A stretch of DNA of 64,000 nt from the NCBI GenBank assembly GCA_902801255.1, contig CADCHO010000008.1:17515-81514 (forward strand), given 5' to 3'. This DNA is from an uncultured Eubacteriales bacterium. Lineage in GTDB: Bacteria; Bacillota; Clostridia; Peptostreptococcales; Anaerovoracaceae. Shown in pieces: positions 606 through 63,169 of this stretch; within the stretch, counting starts at the first letter, position 1, and each line of letters begins with the position of its first letter. Made by a program: the position numbers and the translations under genes. Under the pieces are notes generated by a model that was given only the letters and a program-made list of their open reading frames with translations, did not search any database and was not told where the DNA came from.

Positions 606-3600
606 ATACGGTGTAAAAAGTACACACGAAGCAATCAAGACCAAACTGATGGACTATATCAGCACAGTGTATTTAGGAAAAAATGATGCGCTCCGTTCGG
701 CATGTCTAGATGAACTGGAAGAAGCAGGCGTGATTTACAATGAGCCTTATATCGAAGCCAATCATGCATACCTTCCCGAAGAGAATGGCTTTGAAAGGGC
801 AGACCTTCCAGAAGACGTCAAGAAGATACTTTATGGGATGTATAAGAGAGACCTGGGTGTACATAAAAACCCTTATGTACATCAAAGGGAATCAATAGAG
901 AATTATTACAAAGGAAAAGATCTGTTTATCTCGACTGGAACTGGCTCTGGAAAAACAGAATGCTTTATGTGGCCATTGGCGACGAAGCTTGCTATTGAAC
1001 AAATGCATTCTCCTGATACATGGAGAGTTCGTGGGGTCAGGGCAATAATGCTTTATCCTATGAATGCATTAGTTTCCGATCAAATGGGCAGACTTCGCAA
1101 AATGATTGGTAATGGCCAGAATGGGTTTCACGACCTTATGAATGAGCTTGCCAACGGGACAAGAGTTCCTCAATTCGGGATGTACACTGGTCGGACTCCA
1201 TATCCAGGGAAAAGAGATTTTCATGAGAATATCAACTACGCAAACACTATCAGGCAGGATATCTTAAGTCAAAATGAAGATGTAAAAAAAGCTCTTAAGG
1301 ATCTCGGGAAGTACCCGTCAAAGTATAACCTTGAGGCTTTCTGTGATCGTTTGGAAGAGGAATTCGGATCATTGACAGATTCTAGAGATGCGGAATTGAT
1401 CATGCGTCAGGAGATGCAGGAGTTGTGTCCGGACATTCTGATCACGAACTATTCAATGCTTGAGTACATGCTGATGCGTCCTATCGAAAAGCCTATTTGG
1501 GAGGCTACTCAGGAATGGCTTGAGAGTTCCCCGGAAAACAAGTTGTTGTTTGTGATTGATGAAGCACATATGTACAGAGGATCCTCGGGGGGAGAGGTTG
1601 CTCTTTTAATTCGGAGAGTTTTTCATAAACTTGGAATTGGCAGAGAACGTGTGCAGTTCATTCTCACGAGTGCAAGTATTTCTGGGGATGATGATGCAGT
1701 CTATAAATTTGCCTGTGACCTTAGCGCGCAGGATGAAGATAAGAATTCTTTTGTTATCATTCGCGGCGAAGAAGAGCCGATTGATCTAAATGGTCGTGAA
1801 ATTGATCCTTCCTTATTGCTGGATTATGATATTGACAGACTTCAGATGGACTGGGAAAAGAAGAAGAAAGCAATCAGAGATTTTGCTGAAAGACTTCAAT
1901 TTCCAGGTGATTGCGACTTTAATAGCGAGAAATCTATTGAGGCATGGCTATATGATTGTCTTTCCGAGCTGAATCCAATGCGGCGGATCATGAAGGAAAC
2001 AAGAGGTAATGCTACCAGCTTCGAAGAATTAGCGGAGAAGACATTCGTGGGAGCAGACCGGGAAGTTGCTCAGAAAGCTACCAGTGCTTTTCTGGCAATT
2101 GCTCCGCTTGCTAAAAATAAAGATGATAAGGTCTTGTATCCTGCCAGACTACATATGATGTTCCGAGGGTTGCAAGGAATTTTTGCCTGTTCAAATCCAG
2201 CTTGTTCCTGTAGAAACCATGATGGTACGATAGGTCTCGGCAGGGTTTATTTGAAAAAGCCTGGTACCAGGTGCAAGTGCGGAAGCATGATATATGAGCT
2301 CTATAATGAACGATCCTGTGGAGCTTTGTTCTTGAGAGGATTTATAGACACATCTGAAAGTGAGAGCCCTTTCATTTGGAACGAACTTGGTATACAGTTT
2401 ACAGATGATCTGAAAGAGATTTTACTTTATATCATTCCGAATGATGGAAGCTTTAAGCGGAAAAAAGATATAAAAGTTGGCTGGCTGAATACAGTTGCAG
2501 GAAGGATAGATTACTACAATGATCATACTGGCGAGGAAGGTTTTGTCCAAGTAGCATACAGTATCGCAGAGACGACAGGGAAACCAGATCTGTTGACTTT
2601 CAAATCCTGTCCAAAATGCGGTAAGAATCATTTTGTTGCGACAGATTTTGTAACAAAGGGAAATGAGCCTTTCTTCAACCTTGTATCAGAGCAGTTCTAT
2701 GTGCAGCCGCCGGTTCCAGAGTTTAGCGAATTGGTCAATCAGGGGAGAAAGGTACTTCTCTTTTCGGATAGCAGACAGAGAGCTGCGGTTTTGGCGAGAG
2801 ATCTGACAAAAGCAGCTGATGAAGATGCCATGAAGAAGGCTTTGACCGTTGCTGCAAAAGAACTTCAGGAGTGGGCAGCAGCACATGATGAAGAACCAAC
2901 ACTTAGTCTTTTGTATGTCTTTTTCCTTAAGGTTGCATATCAGCATAAGCTGCGTTTTTTCTATGGAAATAATGAGACTGATCTTCTAAATGATCTGAAG
3001 AAAATGGGGGAGCGTTATGAAAAGAAGGGAGATTCTCTGAAATATACGATTCTGGCAAGAAAGAAATTTTCGCACAAGCCTGAACAGTATAATGAGCATC
3101 TTCTTCGCCAATTATGTAGTAATTTCAGATCTTTGACAGATGCAGGACTGTGCTGGATCGAGCCATGTGATGATGAAGCAGATGATACATTCGATGAAAT
3201 AATAGAAGCGTTCGAGAATGCAGATATCGAAATGTCTCTGAATGAATTTAAGATATTCTTTGCCACATGGGCTATGGAGATCATGACTTCAGAATATGCA
3301 GTTGGTCACGATATTCCTGATTCTGTCCGTAGGAATCTTACTGCATACCACCAGAGAATGGGTGTGGAGGATGAGACTGCTCTTCCACCGAGGATCAAGG
3401 ATTTTCTTGTTGAGCATGGTTACAGTAAAGAGCAGATTAGTGTTATTACTGAGCAGCTAGCGCGTTTTCTTGCGAAAGGAACGGATAGTTCAAATTACTA
3501 TTTGAATCCAGAAATGATCTCTTTGCATTATGGAGCAGATCACGAGTGGTACAAGTGCCCTCGTTGTGGCGGTGTTTTTCCATTCACTATATGGGGTAAA

Positions 3601-5826
3601 TGTGCTCACTGTGGGAATGGAACTCCTAAACTGATGGAGGACGATGAATTCAAAGGTATTAATTTCTGGCGTGCACCGGTATTAAAAGCCGTTGAAGGCG
3701 ATCCTCAGGCGCTTATGACCCGAATCAATACAGAGGAGCATACTGCACAGCTTTCACATAAGGATCAGAGGAACAAAACATGGTCCACTACAGAGGATTA
3801 TGAATTCCGTTTCCAGAACGTTCATGTGGATAATGACCGACCGGTAGACATACTTAGCTGCACAACAACAATGGAAGTAGGAATCGATATTGGTTCCTTG
3901 ACGGCGGTGGGATTAAGGAATATTCCACCGATGAGAGAAAACTACCAGCAGAGAGCAGGACGTGCGGGCCGAAAAAGTGCTGCAATATCGACCATTGTTA
4001 CATTTGCTGATAACCGTCCGCATGACAGCTATTATTTTCACAACCCGAAAAAAATAATTTCCGGTGCGCCAAGAACGCCGTGGATAGATGTGAACAATCT
4101 AAAGCTGGTCTCAAGACATTTCAATGTCATACTGACAACTGAATTTTTTGATAGCATTGGTAGCGGAGCGGATCAGGAAGAAATCGAGGACTTTTTCAGA
4201 AGTTTGTATTATCGATTTGTTTCATTTGTCCAGGCTAAACAGGGATATGATTTTGACATGACCGCCTTGATACCTGGCAAGGTTTCATTCGACTTCAAAA
4301 AGTATAAGTTGAAATTCCTGGAGGAAATGGATGAACTGAAACACAAGGTTGAGGATTTCCCAGAAAATTATAAAGAAGATGATAATTCTTCCAAGACGGT
4401 TCTAGACACCTTACTTGAAGCGGGAATATTCCCGACATATTCATTCCCGAAAGATGTCGTAGGTTTTTATGTAGAGAACAAAGCTGGAAACAGGATCGAT
4501 CAAAAGCCTGACCGTTCCCTTGATATGGCCATCAGTGAATATGCACCTGGACGAATTATCGTTATCAACAAGGAAACATATAAATCTGGCGGTATTTACA
4601 GCTTTCATTCAAAGTTTAAGCCCGGTGAGCTGGAACACCCGGCGCGGCCATATTTTGATAGTAAAGATTACTATCGCCCTTTGTACTATTGTGATGAGTC
4701 TTCCTGTAACTGGATGGGATTGTCATATAAACAGATATGCCCATTCTGTGGCAAGGAAAGTATCAGAGAGAAACACCTTCTTAAGCCTTGGGGATTTGCA
4801 CCAATTGCAGGGAGAAAACAGAATCCAGCAGATGATGATGGGGAAATAACATACGCCGAGGAACCGAGCTATTCTATTACACCTGCAGAGGACGAAATGG
4901 TCAATGTGAGTGATTATAGAAATCTCAGATATTCAAAGAGGTCGGACGATCCGTTGATCATATTGAATAAAGGGCCTGTGGGAAAAGGCTTCTGTGTATG
5001 TAAGGATTGTGGCGCAGCAGTACCGGGTGATGATCCGGCTCCACTGGAAAAAATATGGAAACCATTCCGGCATCCGTATAAGGACTATGTCTGTCATCAT
5101 CCTTCATCCCAAATTGTTAATTCATATTTGGGAAACCAATTTAGGACGGATATGGTTGTGTATGAGATTACGCTTGATAATACCGAAATCAACACATGGG
5201 GACTGTGGATACAACGTGCTGGACAGACATTGGCTGAGGCAATGACATTAGCAGGAGGACGACTTCTGGACATTGAATTCAATGAAATAAAAAGTGGCTA
5301 TCGCCTTCGCTATTCCAGGGAAGAGAGAAAGACTTTTGTAGACGTTTTCCTATTTGACAGCCTTTCCAGTGGTGCGGGATATTGTTCTGCACTTGCAGAC
5401 AGAACCGAAGAACTGATGAAAGAAACAAAAATAGTGTTGGAGACCTGCTCTGCCGAGTGCGACAGTGCCTGCCATGAATGTATGATGCATTATTGGAACC
5501 AACGTGTCCATAGTAAGCTGGATCGGTTTGCCGCTTTAGAGCTGCTGAATTGGAGTAAGGACTCATCGCTACCGCCTTCTATTCCGTTTGATAAACAGAA
5601 AGAACTGTTGGCACCTTTGAATTCTCTTGGTTCTGAATATCAAATAGATTCTGATGGTGATAAAAGTTATATTCATTTCCGGGGAAATACAAAAGAGATA
5701 GTCGTTTATCCGTCAATGTGGAGCGAACATAACAGAAGGATTCCTAAAGGGGTAGTGTCTGTGCCTGATAAATTGTTGAAGTATGCGCTTCCAAAAGCAG
5801 ATTCAGTTATTAGAGAGCAAATTTGA
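598..5826 (+). CDS. Large DEAD/DEAH helicase with DUF1998-type C-terminus (DruE-like)
   Basis: A 1742-residue superfamily 2 helicase. Visible motifs are a Q-like HQRESI (about 95-100), Walker A GTGSGKTE (about 114-121), DEAH in VIDEAHMYRG (about 320), TSAS, and in the second RecA domain MEVGIDIG followed by QQRAGRAGR (about 1117-1125). Several Cys pairs look like zinc ribbons (about 535-570, 670, 985-1005, 1370-1390, 1465). The C-terminus has SSGAGYC and a CxxxCxxxCxxC cluster (about 1617-1628), typical of DUF1998 helicases. Size and architecture best match DruE of Druantia; MrfA/YprA is much shorter, and DISARM splits helicase and DUF1998 over DrmA and DrmB. A role in defence is inference. 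Local G+C looks low: line 2401-2460 has 21 G/C of 60, against 36 of 60 at 12361-12420. Confidence 0.85.
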   Translation: MDKYGVKSTHEAIKTKLMDYISTVYLGKNDALRSACLDELEEAGVIYNEPYIEANHAYLPEENGFERADLPEDVKKILYGMYKRDLGVHKNPYVHQRESIENYYKGKDLFISTGTGSGKTECFMWPLATKLAIEQMHSPDTWRVRGVRAIMLYPMNALVSDQMGRLRKMIGNGQNGFHDLMNELANGTRVPQFGMYTGRTPYPGKRDFHENINYANTIRQDILSQNEDVKKALKDLGKYPSKYNLEAFCDRLEEEFGSLTDSRDAELIMRQEMQELCPDILITNYSMLEYMLMRPIEKPIWEATQEWLESSPENKLLFVIDEAHMYRGSSGGEVALLIRRVFHKLGIGRERVQFILTSASISGDDDAVYKFACDLSAQDEDKNSFVIIRGEEEPIDLNGREIDPSLLLDYDIDRLQMDWEKKKKAIRDFAERLQFPGDCDFNSEKSIEAWLYDCLSELNPMRRIMKETRGNATSFEELAEKTFVGADREVAQKATSAFLAIAPLAKNKDDKVLYPARLHMMFRGLQGIFACSNPACSCRNHDGTIGLGRVYLKKPGTRCKCGSMIYELYNERSCGALFLRGFIDTSESESPFIWNELGIQFTDDLKEILLYIIPNDGSFKRKKDIKVGWLNTVAGRIDYYNDHTGEEGFVQVAYSIAETTGKPDLLTFKSCPKCGKNHFVATDFVTKGNEPFFNLVSEQFYVQPPVPEFSELVNQGRKVLLFSDSRQRAAVLARDLTKAADEDAMKKALTVAAKELQEWAAAHDEEPTLSLLYVFFLKVAYQHKLRFFYGNNETDLLNDLKKMGERYEKKGDSLKYTILARKKFSHKPEQYNEHLLRQLCSNFRSLTDAGLCWIEPCDDEADDTFDEIIEAFENADIEMSLNEFKIFFATWAMEIMTSEYAVGHDIPDSVRRNLTAYHQRMGVEDETALPPRIKDFLVEHGYSKEQISVITEQLARFLAKGTDSSNYYLNPEMISLHYGADHEWYKCPRCGGVFPFTIWGKCAHCGNGTPKLMEDDEFKGINFWRAPVLKAVEGDPQALMTRINTEEHTAQLSHKDQRNKTWSTTEDYEFRFQNVHVDNDRPVDILSCTTTMEVGIDIGSLTAVGLRNIPPMRENYQQRAGRAGRKSAAISTIVTFADNRPHDSYYFHNPKKIISGAPRTPWIDVNNLKLVSRHFNVILTTEFFDSIGSGADQEEIEDFFRSLYYRFVSFVQAKQGYDFDMTALIPGKVSFDFKKYKLKFLEEMDELKHKVEDFPENYKEDDNSSKTVLDTLLEAGIFPTYSFPKDVVGFYVENKAGNRIDQKPDRSLDMAISEYAPGRIIVINKETYKSGGIYSFHSKFKPGELEHPARPYFDSKDYYRPLYYCDESSCNWMGLSYKQICPFCGKESIREKHLLKPWGFAPIAGRKQNPADDDGEITYAEEPSYSITPAEDEMVNVSDYRNLRYSKRSDDPLIILNKGPVGKGFCVCKDCGAAVPGDDPAPLEKIWKPFRHPYKDYVCHHPSSQIVNSYLGNQFRTDMVVYEITLDNTEINTWGLWIQRAGQTLAEAMTLAGGRLLDIEFNEIKSGYRLRYSREERKTFVDVFLFDSLSSGAGYCSALADRTEELMKETKIVLETCSAECDSACHECMMHYWNQRVHSKLDRFAALELLNWSKDSSLPPSIPFDKQKELLAPLNSLGSEYQIDSDGDKSYIHFRGNTKEIVVYPSMWSEHNRRIPKGVVSVPDKLLKYALPKADSVIREQI

Positions 5827-29535: not shown

Positions 29536-29788
29536 AAATCTTGCACAGGTACCGAAATAAAATCTTTTTTTCAAGATTTGATTCATTTACTGCAGCAAAT
29601 ACAATCGAAAAATAAACAAATCTTGAACACTACCAGTGCTTATGGCAGGTTGTTCAAGATGCTACTCGAAAAATCTTGTACAGAGCAAGGGAATCCGCTT
29701 TTATTTTCAAGATTGTCCCCGGAACATAAGCCTACCACGATACAAATCTTGAAAACTCAGGGTTAATATGGGCTGCTATACAAGATTT
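29536..29788. repeat. Element A: eight alternating octamers (AAATCTTG/CAAGATTT)
   Basis: Eight copies of AAATCTTG (F) or its reverse complement CAAGATTT (R) alternate strictly as F R F R F R F R, starting at 29536, 29572, 29618, 29655, 29671, 29708, 29744 and 29781. R2 (CAAGATGC) and R3 (CAAGATTG) are imperfect. Spacings are 36, 46, 37, 16, 37, 36 and 37. Spacer sequence is mostly unique. F2 and R2 extend to a 9-base complement (ATCTTGAAC/GTTCAAGAT); R2 and F3 can form a tight hairpin (CAAGAT/ATCTTG). The last copy lies upstream of thpR. Geometry matches element B at 50407. Identity unknown. Confidence 0.85.
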
Positions 29789-49129: not shown

Positions 49130-50365
49130 ATGAGTATGCTCAAATATGTAGACAGAAAGAATACCGACTGTGCAAAGTGGGACGGTCTGGAGAAATCGTT
49201 CAGCAGGGGAGACCTGCTTGCAATGTGGGTGGCTGACATGGATTTTAAGGTGCCGGAATGCGTCAGCCGCAGACTCTCGGAATACATAGAGCTCGGCACT
49301 TTCGGATACTATAATCCTCCTGACGGATACTATGATGCGTTCATCGAATGGGAGAGAAAGTATCATGGTTATGACGTTAAGAGGGAGTGGATGCGTTTTG
49401 CTCCGGGCGTCGTTCCTGCATTCAACTGGCTCGTTCAGCTGATGGCCGGAGAAGGTGAGGCTGTCGCAGTGATGCAGCCTGTCTATTATCCGTTCATGAA
49501 GGCAGTGGAAAACAACGGCAGACGCCTTGTTAACTGTCCGCTGCTGCGTACGGAACGCGGATACGAAATGGACTATGAGGCTTTCGAGGAAACGATCATT
49601 CGCGAAGACGTTAAGGCATTCATTTTCTGCTCACCGCACAATCCTGTCGGACGCGTGTGGAAGAAAGACGAGATCCGCCGCGTGCTCGACATATGTAAAA
49701 AACATAATGTCTATGTCATTTCTGACGAGATACATCAGGACATCATCATGAGCGGACACAAGCACATTCCGTCAGCTACAGCCGGCGAAGAGGCAGGAGC
49801 TTACGACGATATTCTGGTCACTCTGACTGCCGCGACTAAGACATTCAACCTTGCCGCCGTCCAGAATTCCATCGTTATCATCCCGGACAAAGCCTTTCGC
49901 GAAAGATGGGACAAGTTTGCAGAAGGCATACGGATAACAGGTGGAAACGCCTTCGGCTATATAGCCGTCCGGGCTGCTTATGAGGAAGGGAGACCGTGGT
50001 TCGAGGAGCTTCTTGGTGCGATCGAGGGAAACTATAAGTATCTCCGAAGCAGGCTCGAAGCGGAACTGCCGGATGTGAGAGTTGCTGACCTTGAAGGCAC
50101 TTATCTGATGTGGATCGATCTCAGCGCATATATGGACAGAATCATCGCAATGGCTGCAGGCAAATATACGATGGATCCATCCGCGTATGACTCGGCTGTG
50201 ACTGCGATTCAGCATTTTATGGAAGACGAATGCGGAATCGCAGCTGACTATGGCACATGGTTCGGAGGCGCTGAATACGCAGGTTGTATCAGGATCAACC
50301 TCGCGACCTGCCGCGAAAACATCGAAATCGCCGCCGACAGAATAATAAGCGCATTGAAAAGCTAA
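49130..50365 (+). CDS. PatB/MalY-type PLP lyase (cystathionine beta-lyase-like)
   Basis: A 411-residue class I/II aminotransferase-fold enzyme. WVADMDFKVPE and GTFGYYNPPDGY at the start, FCSPHNPVGRVW, SDEIHQDI, and Lys in TAATKTFNLA that binds PLP. MalY/PatB enzymes release sulfide or homocysteine from Cys or cystathionine. It is followed by element B. Confidence 0.92.
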   Translation: MSMLKYVDRKNTDCAKWDGLEKSFSRGDLLAMWVADMDFKVPECVSRRLSEYIELGTFGYYNPPDGYYDAFIEWERKYHGYDVKREWMRFAPGVVPAFNWLVQLMAGEGEAVAVMQPVYYPFMKAVENNGRRLVNCPLLRTERGYEMDYEAFEETIIREDVKAFIFCSPHNPVGRVWKKDEIRRVLDICKKHNVYVISDEIHQDIIMSGHKHIPSATAGEEAGAYDDILVTLTAATKTFNLAAVQNSIVIIPDKAFRERWDKFAEGIRITGGNAFGYIAVRAAYEEGRPWFEELLGAIEGNYKYLRSRLEAELPDVRVADLEGTYLMWIDLSAYMDRIIAMAAGKYTMDPSAYDSAVTAIQHFMEDECGIAADYGTWFGGAEYAGCIRINLATCRENIEIAADRIISALKS

Positions 50366-50406: not shown

Positions 50407-50647
50407 TAAACTTGTCAAATGAATTGAATAAAGAAGATTTGGCAAGTTTACTGCAGAAACATCTTTGAAAAACGATCGAAAACTTGAACAATTCTTGACT
50501 TATACAGAAAAATGACAAGTCTTTTCATAAACAGACTTGTCATTTTTTTATGATATTAAATTTTTTACAAGTTTTCGCCGCGTACTGTTATCAGACCTGC
50601 CGTAAAACTTGTGCTTTTTACTGGAAAAACCCAATCTGCCAAGTTTT
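50407..50647. repeat. Element B: eight alternating octamers (AAAACTTG/CAAGTTTT)
   Basis: The same geometry as element A with a different octamer. Starts are F1 50407 (TAAACTTG), R1 50443 (CAAGTTTA), F2 50479, R2 50516 (CAAGTCTT), F3 50532 (CAGACTTG), R3 50568, F4 50604 and R4 50640. Spacings are 36, 36, 37, 16, 36, 36 and 36. Extended complements point to pairs: F1:R1 (TAAACTTG/CAAGTTTA), F2:R3 (CGAAAACTTG/CAAGTTTTCG), R2:F3 (11 bp), F4:R4 (GTAAAACTTG/CAAGTTTTAC). TTTACTGCAG after R1 is shared with A. It lies between two convergent genes. Confidence 0.88.
50511..50549. terminator. Central hairpin of element B, terminator-like
   Basis: AATGACAAGTC / GACTTGTCATT with a 12-base loop and seven T; AAAAA on the other side. 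Likely bidirectional terminator between the convergent patB-like and cysteine desulfurase genes, and also R2:F3 of element B. Confidence 0.8.
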
Positions 50648-50688: not shown

Positions 50689-51846
50689 TTAGCCGCAGAT
50701 CTCGGTCAGAGCTTTGATGGCGGCGTCGACATCGGCCTCTGTATTGAAGTTGCCGAAGCTGAAGCGGATGGTTCCGGTCGGATATGTGCCGAGAGTCTTG
50801 TGTGCATTAGGTGCACAGTGCAGTCCGACTCTGGTTTCAATGCCGTATTCAAAGTCGAGTCTGAAAGCTGCATCAGCACAGTCGACGCCGAGAGTCTGGA
50901 TCGATACAACTCCGGTACGTCCCTCTACACCTTTGAGTCCTATTATCTTCAGCTTGCCGGCCTCCTCAAGAGGCAGCAGTCCGTCGAGGAATCTCTTAGT
51001 AAGACCAAGCTCATGTGCTGCAATAGCATCGAGCCCTTTTTCCTTTATCCACTTGAGTCCGGCGTTCAGTCCGACTATTCCCGGAATATTCATGGTACCC
51101 GGTTCAAATCTGTCCGGCATGAAATCAGGTATCTCCTCAGTGTGGCTTATGGAGCCTGTCCCGCCGGAGAGGAGAGGGTCGATTAGACCAATCATGGCTT
51201 CGTCGAGGATGAATCCGCCTATGCCCTGAGGACCGAGCAGCGATTTGTGCCCTGTGAAGCAGAGCGCGTCAATGTGCATCTCTTTCATGTCGATAGGGAT
51301 GATGCCTGCGCTCTGCGCTGAATCGACGATGAATTTCAGCCCGTGCTTATGACATATCTCGCCGACTTCCTTCAGAGGATTGACTGTTCCGACCAGATTG
51401 CTGGCGTGGGTCATTACTATTGCGACAGTGTTTTCTTTTATCATGCCTTCAACAGCGTCAAGCACGAGTTCTCCGCACTCAGTGCCGGGGATCCTGTCGA
51501 ACTCTATGCCTTTTTTCTGAAGCTGCACGAGAGGTCTCATCACAGCATTGTGTTCCATCGAAGAGCAGAGGATATGATCACCAGGCTTGAGCAGCCCTTT
51601 AAGAACCACGTTCAGCGATTCTGTAACGTTCTTTGTGAACACTACATTCTTGCAGTCGGAGCCTCCGAACATTTCCATGAGCATCTCGCGTGTCTCAAAT
51701 ACGGTGCCTTCGAGGTCGTATGCAACCTGATAGCCGCCGCGGTTGATGTTGGCTCCAATGCTCGTCATATATTCATAAACAGCGTCCGCAACTTCCTTTG
51801 GCTTAGGGTAGGAAGTTGCGCCGTTATCCAGATAGATCTTTTCCAT
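50689..51846 (-). CDS. Cysteine desulfurase family protein
   Basis: A 385-residue class V PLP enzyme: YLDNGATSYPKP, SSMEHNAVMRPL, DSAQSAGIIPIDM, Lys in TGHKSLLGPQG, and GLHCAPNAHKTLGT with the probable catalytic Cys. It may supply sulfur for MnmA or Fe-S clusters. GTGAGG ribosome site upstream. One of two genes on this strand. Confidence 0.9.
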   Translation of the reverse strand: MEKIYLDNGATSYPKPKEVADAVYEYMTSIGANINRGGYQVAYDLEGTVFETREMLMEMFGGSDCKNVVFTKNVTESLNVVLKGLLKPGDHILCSSMEHNAVMRPLVQLQKKGIEFDRIPGTECGELVLDAVEGMIKENTVAIVMTHASNLVGTVNPLKEVGEICHKHGLKFIVDSAQSAGIIPIDMKEMHIDALCFTGHKSLLGPQGIGGFILDEAMIGLIDPLLSGGTGSISHTEEIPDFMPDRFEPGTMNIPGIVGLNAGLKWIKEKGLDAIAAHELGLTKRFLDGLLPLEEAGKLKIIGLKGVEGRTGVVSIQTLGVDCADAAFRLDFEYGIETRVGLHCAPNAHKTLGTYPTGTIRFSFGNFNTEADVDAAIKALTEICG

Positions 51847-52041: not shown

Positions 52042-52145
52042 AATGATATCAGTGATACTACGGCTTTGCCGCAATGTAGATATCATTGATCTCCGGAGGC
52101 TGAGCTCCTCCGATAGAATGATATCAGTGATACTACGGCTTTGCC
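52042..52145 (+). repeat. Two 29-base direct repeats with hairpin potential
   Basis: A 29-base repeat (starts AATGATATCAGTGATAC, ends CGGCTTTGCC) at 52042-52070 recurs exactly at 52117-52145. Between lies GATATCATT (52079), the inverse of its start, and a CGGAGG/CCTCCG hairpin (52094-52112). The first copy can fold with AATGATAT/ATATCATT and CGGC/GCCG, the second with AGTGAT/ATCACT. It lies in the 344-base gap before murC, in which I see no gene. Confidence 0.8.
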
Positions 52146-62965: not shown

Positions 62966-63069
62966 TTTAAAAACCTCCGGAACACAGTAATTGCAATACA
63001 ATAACGAATTACGCTCGACTGCAGCAATCACGTCCCAAGAGGTCATCTCTTGCTTATTATTGATCTGCA

Positions 63070-63162
63070 GTAGCGGATGCAATATCAAACCGCAACTCTG
63101 AAAGTTTTCGTTCCCGGGCAACATCCCATCCCAGGACACTTGACGCTTGATATTTACTCTAC
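63070..63162 (-). promoter_or_regulatory. Tetrahydrofolate riboswitch
   Basis: On the - strand the leader of folT shows GTAG/CTAC (P1) and ATATCAA/TTGATAT (P2) pairing, the conserved blocks AGCGTCAAGTGTC, GGGATGGGATGTTGCCC, GAACGAA and TTGCATCCGCTAC, in the order of the THF aptamer. About 105 bases separate it from the ATG; no clear U-run, so control may be at translation start. Confidence 0.93.
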
Positions 63163-63169
63163 GGCTAGA

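Follow-up and report, generated by a model that had tools for sequence, protein, structure and literature searches.

Dispersed eight-site arrays with helically quantised spacing in the intergenic DNA of a gut bacterial genus, probable docking sites for a multimeric protein on double-stranded DNA

BIME/REP arrays are extragenic repeats linked to RAYT transposases, and the BIMEs of E. coli consist of two kinds of unit, Y and Z2, for which binding of gyrase and IHF has been reported (PMC2817692). The DNA uptake sequences of the Neisseriaceae show dialects among related species (PMC3630211). RemA and AsnC/LrpC rings are multimers for which DNA wrapping has been proposed; the targets of RemA are repetitive DNA regions, and its reported footprints consist of periodic 7-bp direct repeats with 3-bp gaps (PMC8481266). 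In the literature searched, which was surveyed mostly at summary level, no description was found of arrays such as those reported here.

The locus under study, element B, lies in the window, a stretch of 64,000 nucleotides (contig CADCHO010000008.1, positions 17,515 to 81,514) from a gut bacterium. Our results indicate that B is probably one of a dispersed group of intergenic arrays that act as double-stranded DNA and bind a putative sequence-specific multimeric protein. When the site starts were recomputed, eight alternating sites with spacings 36, 36, 37, 16, 36, 36 and 36 were obtained, exactly as claimed in an initial annotation of this DNA. Exact AAAACTTG/CAAGTTTT accounts for 4 of the 8 octamers, and the shared variants that had been pointed out were confirmed, F1 and R1 both reading TAAACTTG and R2 and F3 reading AAGACTTG and CAGACTTG, respectively. 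The word reported to follow R1 in both B and a second array, element A, is indeed common to them: TTTACTGCAG is present at 29586 and at 50447, two occurrences in a window where 0.16 would be expected. A and B had also been said to have the same geometry, which was incorrect (Table 1), and the 46 among the spacings of A is informative. Their octamers differ as stated, but by one base merely (AAATCTTG vs AAAACTTG). In a blind geometry scan admitting any octamer, B had the best score of the window, 5, and A followed with 12, shifted readings aside; the next place scored 18, and five mono-shuffled windows gave best scores of 17-20. No alternating chain of at least five sites was found in four dinucleotide-shuffled windows, and 1.08 Mb of shuffled sequence gave one chain of at least four.

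Table 1. Positions of element B, its sites and other features of the window
Feature	Position	Strand	Description
Element B, 240 bases	50407..50647	.	dyad-symmetric eight-site array between two convergent genes; orthologous arrays in G163, G174
Site F1	50407..50414	+	TAAACTTG, class X position
Site R1	50443..50450	-	TAAACTTG on - strand, class Y position
Site F2	50479..50486	+	AAAACTTG, class X position
Site R2	50516..50523	-	AAGACTTG on - strand, class Y position
Site F3	50532..50539	+	CAGACTTG, class Y position
Site R3	50568..50575	-	AAAACTTG on - strand, class X position
Site F4	50604..50611	+	AAAACTTG, class Y position
Site R4	50640..50647	-	AAAACTTG on - strand, class X position
Central dyad of B	50508..50547	.	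R2-F3 inverted repeat, 18-nt arms; hairpin predicted on both strands
Element A	29536..29788	.	like array, spelling AAATCTTG, spacings 36,46,37,16,37,36,37
Left flanking gene of B	49130..50365	+	aminotransferase-like, named by inspection
Right flanking gene of B	50689..51846	-	class-V aminotransferase / cysteine-desulfurase-like, named by inspection
THF riboswitch	63069..63163	-	Rfam match, 81.2 bits

That B might represent a new element family was borne out, as dispersed intergenic arrays were found at many places in G000, the genome holding the window, and in nine other genomes of its genus (other G numbers denote genomes compared, and L numbers fetched loci). The two-site pattern R then F matched 10 places in G000 and its reversed control none, and the loci fetched with it carry up to eight octamers, though the query demanded just two. 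Matches to a sequence-only model built from an alignment of 27 half-arrays, counted to E 0.1, were located at no fewer than 18 places in G000 and at least 12 in G163, 9 in G156 and 6 in G174, with fewer in G182, G184, G176, G191 and G177 among the matches listed; 33 of 47 genus genomes had at least one match at E<=0.1, many of them weak. Fits at 50 of 56 loci, in 10 genomes, beat the best of 112 shuffled stretches, the six not above it being L135, L138, L144, L161, L163 and L164. The partial array L088/L138 was left out of the spacing table of 18 elements.

The search was extended to the family of the host. At E<=1e-5 with strict filters, the model matched 5 of 296 genomes drawn from a larger group and covering 92 genera, all of them in its own genus, and no match was obtained in the 91 other genera. 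A three-site pattern found nine stretches in a named genome collection, of which two, one full array and one imperfect, were in Mogibacterium sp. RGIG5272; in each of the remaining seven the best geometry score lay within 15-20 (the full array scored 4) and no eight-site array was present. Since G163 and the MAG Mogibacterium sp. RGIG5272 carry the same array, the genus is Mogibacterium or close to it. The two-site pattern also matched G003 and G009, from other genera, and G185 once each, with no array there (scores 19-21), and its reversed control gave four matches in three other genomes. Allowing any fourth base added one match in G172 and one further G000 place, L089, both without an array. 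One three-site pattern had no match in viral contigs, and a 101-kb sample of G155 contained no chain of four. Two octamer-blind chains, L066:16946 and L074:1127, were dropped as repetitive coding sequence.

Other repeats were noticed along the way. A second array family was seen in G000 at L165, L166 and L167 (contigs 2, 3 and 11), where copies of the word ATTGCGCA are grouped by fours in palindromic clusters (F-33-R-18-F-33-R), and another cluster, whole or partial, lies close to each of these; the centre pattern of this family matched three times in G000, not at all in the other 46 genus genomes, and not in the control. Window positions 52042-52124, immediately upstream of a gene judged murC-like by inspection, hold a repeated unit with inverted sites AATGATAT / ATATCATT 37-38 apart, of which more copies are present in G163 (L032 2850) and G159 (L034 1147). 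In G161, which is another species, a different hairpin array (GTAACTAT / ATAGTTAC, intervals near 30, L050 ~2729-3060) adjoins the orthologous desulfurase-like gene.

The spacings of the arrays are quantised by the helical turn (16, 36-37 and 46), consistent with sites on one face of B-DNA. Across 55 loci, counted without L161, which is identical to L131, the F-R gaps were 36-37 in 100 of 108 and the centre was 16 in 31 of 43. The linkers R1-F2 and R3-F4, allowed to range over 28-52, were 35-36 in 37 of 73, 45-47 in 35 and 50 in one, and none fell at 37-44; these counts carry a search bias, as each locus found with a pattern had one of its R-F linkers set beforehand to 34-39, and the model search favours the spacing of the arrays that built the model. 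Loci not found by the model contributed 34 linkers, and the 19 of these that were free of pattern preselection were 36 in 7, 45-46 in 11 and 50 in 1. The pre-model set of 18 elements had gaps of 35-37 in 69 of 81, 45-46 in 11 and 50 in 1, and the same gap analysis of shuffled stretches gave 7 scattered pairs in 54. The step of 10 from 36 to 46 equals one turn of B-DNA, and the step of about 20 from 36 to 16 equals two. Phase coherence at whole turns was highest, 0.915, for 10.3 bp per turn when the middle A of AAA was taken as the site position, and 2 of 400 random spacing sets reached this coherence; a site reference point five bases further gave nearly equal coherence. The variants also obeyed the rule: both linkers are 47 in L154/L155, and L160 (G177, 3006-3300) is a tandem of an 83-bp unit with spacings 37, 46, 37, 46, 37, 46 and 37 and no 16-bp centre. 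The helix-periodic site spacing by which a protein array on double-stranded DNA was to be recognised was found. The helical turn is visible here in genome sequence, with sites recurring at ~16, 36 or 46 bases and hardly between, so that DNA by itself reveals how a putative, unseen nucleoprotein complex is laid out.

Orthologues of the right flanking gene were used as a handle for finding both occupied and array-free B loci, and in G163 and G174 an orthologue of B was located between the counterparts of its two flanking genes. The three comparisons at this locus gave identical octamer positions in 61/64, 58/64 and 56/63 and identical spacer positions in 107/145, 93/145 and 81/145; with the fourth base left out, the Fisher values for octamer vs spacer were 1.2e-4 to 4.2e-4. 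Pooling 15 orthologous pairs, which are not independent, gave 447 of 651 identical positions for octamers without the fourth base and 1118 of 2400 for spacers. Strong octamer conservation at single loci was seen in the B trio, L005/L086, L011/L146 and L127/L137; octamers were not significantly above spacers, or alignment failed, in L005/L149, L014/L139, L125/L145, L129/L153, L130/L136 and L134/L141 among others. At the best-aligned orthologous loci, octamers evolve more slowly than the intervening DNA. Related flanks across genomes were shared by 11 locus groups, counting L131/L161. The latter two, from G163 and G166, are identical DNA, with 1140 flank bases at 100%, possibly through contamination in one assembly.

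Array copies have spread within G000 at least once: L013 and L014 are 79% identical over 356 bp, in inverted orientation and with unrelated flanks. Between A and L013 the identity is 66% across 257 bp. The locus of L014 holds a dissimilar array, L139, in G174, which suggests that arrays may be replaced or converted. Beside two arrays a further dispersed repeat was noted (L013 ~1828-1942 and L004 ~4370-4485; 82% identity over 116 bp).

Each array typically comprises eight copies of AAANCTTG in alternating orientation with dyad symmetry, and the sites are of two kinds in the mirror layout X Y X Y / Y X Y X. In Y sites AAANCTTG is followed mostly by (T/A)CAAA or AAAA, whereas X sites mostly continue with (T/A)A and lack the C. 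The distinction is clear for class Y; class X is clear at the inner F2 and R3 and weak at the outermost F1 and R4. The spelling of the octamer is common to the sites of one element and largely to the elements of one genome. At good sites the dominant fourth base was T in G000 (81/108), C in G156 (33/35), A in G174 (29/36) and C in G184 (16/18), and G163 was mixed (T 12, A 21, C 24, G 2). Of 16 G000 elements tested, 13 had the T type and the other three (B, C and L006) the A type, with little mixing inside any one element. This within-element homogeneity, tested on fits of score >=225 with at least four good sites, was reached by 0 of 5000 shuffles in G000 and was weaker in G163 (23 of 5000) and G174 (61 of 5000). 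The commonest Y flank was AAAA in G000, ACAA in G156 and TCAA in G174. Genome-wide dialects point to a trans-acting reader of the sites, which would explain such spelling; copying between arrays may contribute, because L014 resembles L013 and has a dissimilar array at its own locus in G174. The dialects make the protein findable, as a DNA-binding protein whose recognition surface should change with the spelling.

The initial annotation had proposed that F and R octamers change together, keeping complementarity, and that flank extensions suggest the pairs F1:R1, F2:R3 around R2:F3, and F4:R4. We compared four bases before and eight after each octamer, in F orientation, within 18 elements. Mutual inner-flank identity was 0.53-0.66 for class Y (R1, R2, F3, F4) and 0.40-0.54 for class X (F1, F2, R3, R4), F1 being weakest, and 0.32-0.50 across classes, with 14 of 16 cross-class pairs at or below 0.40 and R2:R4 (0.50) and F3:R4 (0.44) as exceptions. 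Same-direction sites, which are unable to pair, were alike (R1/R2 0.56, F3/F4 0.53, F1/F2 0.47, R3/R4 0.49), and the proposed partners F1:R1 (0.38) and F4:R4 (0.39) were less alike than these. R2:F3 alone was alike on the outer side too, with 0.55 against 0.14-0.34 for other pairs, and may form a real hairpin.

Covariation was tested in 29 of the 56 fitted loci (all sites >=4/7, score >=250; L155, L136 and L137 left out), with partners from other elements as the null. The inner flanks of R2:F3 (z 5.8) and F2:R3 (z 2.1) covaried, but those of F1:R1 (z 1.2) and F4:R4 (z -0.2) did so no better than with partners from other elements. Of the proposed pairs, R2:F3 and F2:R3 match and the other two do not. 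The lack of supported covariation that had been named as grounds for rejecting the fold was thus seen in F1:R1 and F4:R4 but not in R2:F3. Covariation also linked sites that the proposed fold does not pair (F4:R1 z 5.7, F3:R1 z 4.5, F4:R2 z 4.0), and the fourth base covaried in all 16 F:R combinations (z 2.2-5.0). Inside class X, covariation was weak (F1:R3 z 1.2, F1:R4 z 0.3, F2:R4 z 1.3). Because F2:R3 and R2:F3 are same-class pairs, class explains their match as well, and covariation across non-pairing sites means that changes follow element and class rather than the base pair. F and R octamers thus do change together within an element, but non-pairing sites change together too. Inverted-repeat arrays can mimic RNA covariation, for which same-orientation sites and linker length serve as controls.

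The genomic context was then assigned with a crude ORF caller. Taking orthologous loci separately, 21 of 55 loci were convergent, 20 tandem and 6 divergent, with 8 not assigned; with orthologous loci counted once, by hand, 16 were convergent vs 5 divergent (two-sided 0.027). Some arrays overlap gene ends. One 284-aa ORF (L082 7786-8637, G000, element L011) starts inside the array between R3 and F4, preceded by a ribosome-binding-like GGAGG, and it matched no Pfam family at E<=0.001. Neighbouring genes were varied and mostly metabolic, PHP-domain proteins leading the tally with four members among the matches listed. The domain scan covered 81 of 196 neighbouring ORFs, of which two matched HTH_3 and two PC4; the PC4 pair are orthologues at L130/L136, and one of the HTH_3 proteins, 130 aa long and encoded at L151 2570-2959 in G156, adjoins the array of that locus on its left. 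No binder candidate was identified among these 81 proteins. A supposed HTH gene beside L125/L145 was set aside as binder, neither protein matching an HTH family.

Several explanations of the arrays were weighed. That B functions as a structured RNA or single-stranded DNA element, with F1:R1, F2:R3 around R2:F3, and F4:R4 as its stems, is very improbable. As RNA, B has a better predicted fold than its shuffled versions whichever strand is taken (z -6.0 and -6.9), which is as expected of an inverted-repeat array, and the two strands fold about equally well. The covarying flanks of R2:F3 and F2:R3 and the variants common to F1/R1 and to R2/F3 in B are in its favour, but F4:R1, F3:R1 and F4:R2 covary while F1:R1 and F4:R4 do not, and same-direction sites match equally well. 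Linkers measure 35-36 or 45-47 in 72 of 73 cases, and unpaired RNA linkers would have no evident reason for a fixed length. No Rfam family was found at gathering score on B or on seven array-bearing loci, and the 14 matches in B at E<=1 were all below half or little over half of the gathering scores. With covariation not confined to helix partners, the claim of folding was not upheld. We also consider it highly unlikely that B is a two-way intrinsic terminator with the surrounding inverted repeats incidental, since this leaves the six outer sites, their phasing and their spellings unexplained. A strict terminator scan lists none in B, and a separate terminator-like hairpin adjoins the array in L013/L014 (by inspection), although the central R2-F3 inverted repeat with A/T runs and the excess of convergent over divergent loci would suit such a role. 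So would the array-free B-locus orthologues L033, L035, L036, L039 and L040, which hold a short stretch with a terminator-like hairpin there (by inspection).

A non-autonomous mobile element, selfish and with no host role, whose sites are kept for the assembly of a transposase or recombinase, is a possible but doubtful explanation. The L013/L014 pair, the likeness of A to L013, the dissimilar array at the L014 locus in G174, the tandem growth of the 83-bp unit in L160 and the multi-copy, genus-bound distribution all agree with mobility. Against it, the 11 locus groups share flanks between genomes (L131/L161 as identical DNA), octamers are conserved in place where the alignment is good, L013/L014 show no common terminal repeat or target duplication (by inspection), and the neighbour families listed, 25 of 101, include no transposase. 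The RAYT domain Y1_Tnp (PF01797) had no match at E<=1e-5 in G000, G163 or G174, an absence less sure in G000 (78.5% complete) and G174 (78%) than in G163 (95%). PF01797 was matched in 23 of 47 genus genomes, including the array-bearing G156, G157, G176, G182, G184 and G191; a RAYT link was dropped for the two richest genomes, which have no Y1 transposase match. We favour the double-stranded DNA array, in which a putative trans-acting multimeric protein would occupy all sites together and would bend, wrap or bridge the 240 bp into one nucleoprotein complex. Such a complex would most likely have an architectural role at gene ends, and weak termination in both directions may be a further function of the central Y-Y dyad. 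Telling against this reading, no binding protein was found, many orthologous comparisons lack a significant octamer excess over spacers, the fourth bases of G163 are mixed and homogeneity is weaker in G163 and G174, covariation in class X is weak, and common descent, instead of selection, could account for part of the strictness of the spacing. More tentatively, the arrays might reflect a genus-specific chromosome architecture, in which a multimeric protein on one-face arrays has drifted in specificity and the species dialect has been kept in step genome-wide.

Compared with known systems, the arrays resemble BIME/REP sequences in being extragenic and dispersed, in their regularly spaced alternating units of two kinds and in tandem growth (PMC2817692). 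They differ from REP, whose unit is an imperfect palindrome, because AAANCTTG with its flanks is not palindromic (by base frequencies), and from BIMEs because the two halves of an array mirror each other across a centre of 16 bp and the linkers are helix-quantised. Copy number is a further point of difference, with at least 18 places in G000 against usually more than 100 REP copies per genome (PMC2817692). Like MITEs, they are a few hundred bp long and multi-copy, with one clear duplicated pair at two loci; no conserved terminal repeat or target duplication was seen in that pair (L013/L014, by inspection), and no autonomous partner was found among the listed neighbour families of these fragmented assemblies. 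Uptake sequences are single short words and not eight-site phased arrays. The arrays share with the uptake dialects of the Neisseriaceae that related species spell a short DNA word in their own way (PMC3630211). RemA and AsnC would serve as analogies only for the array binder. In contrast to the RemA footprints, the arrays described here are inverted and two-class, with spacings of 36, 46 and 16 (PMC8481266).
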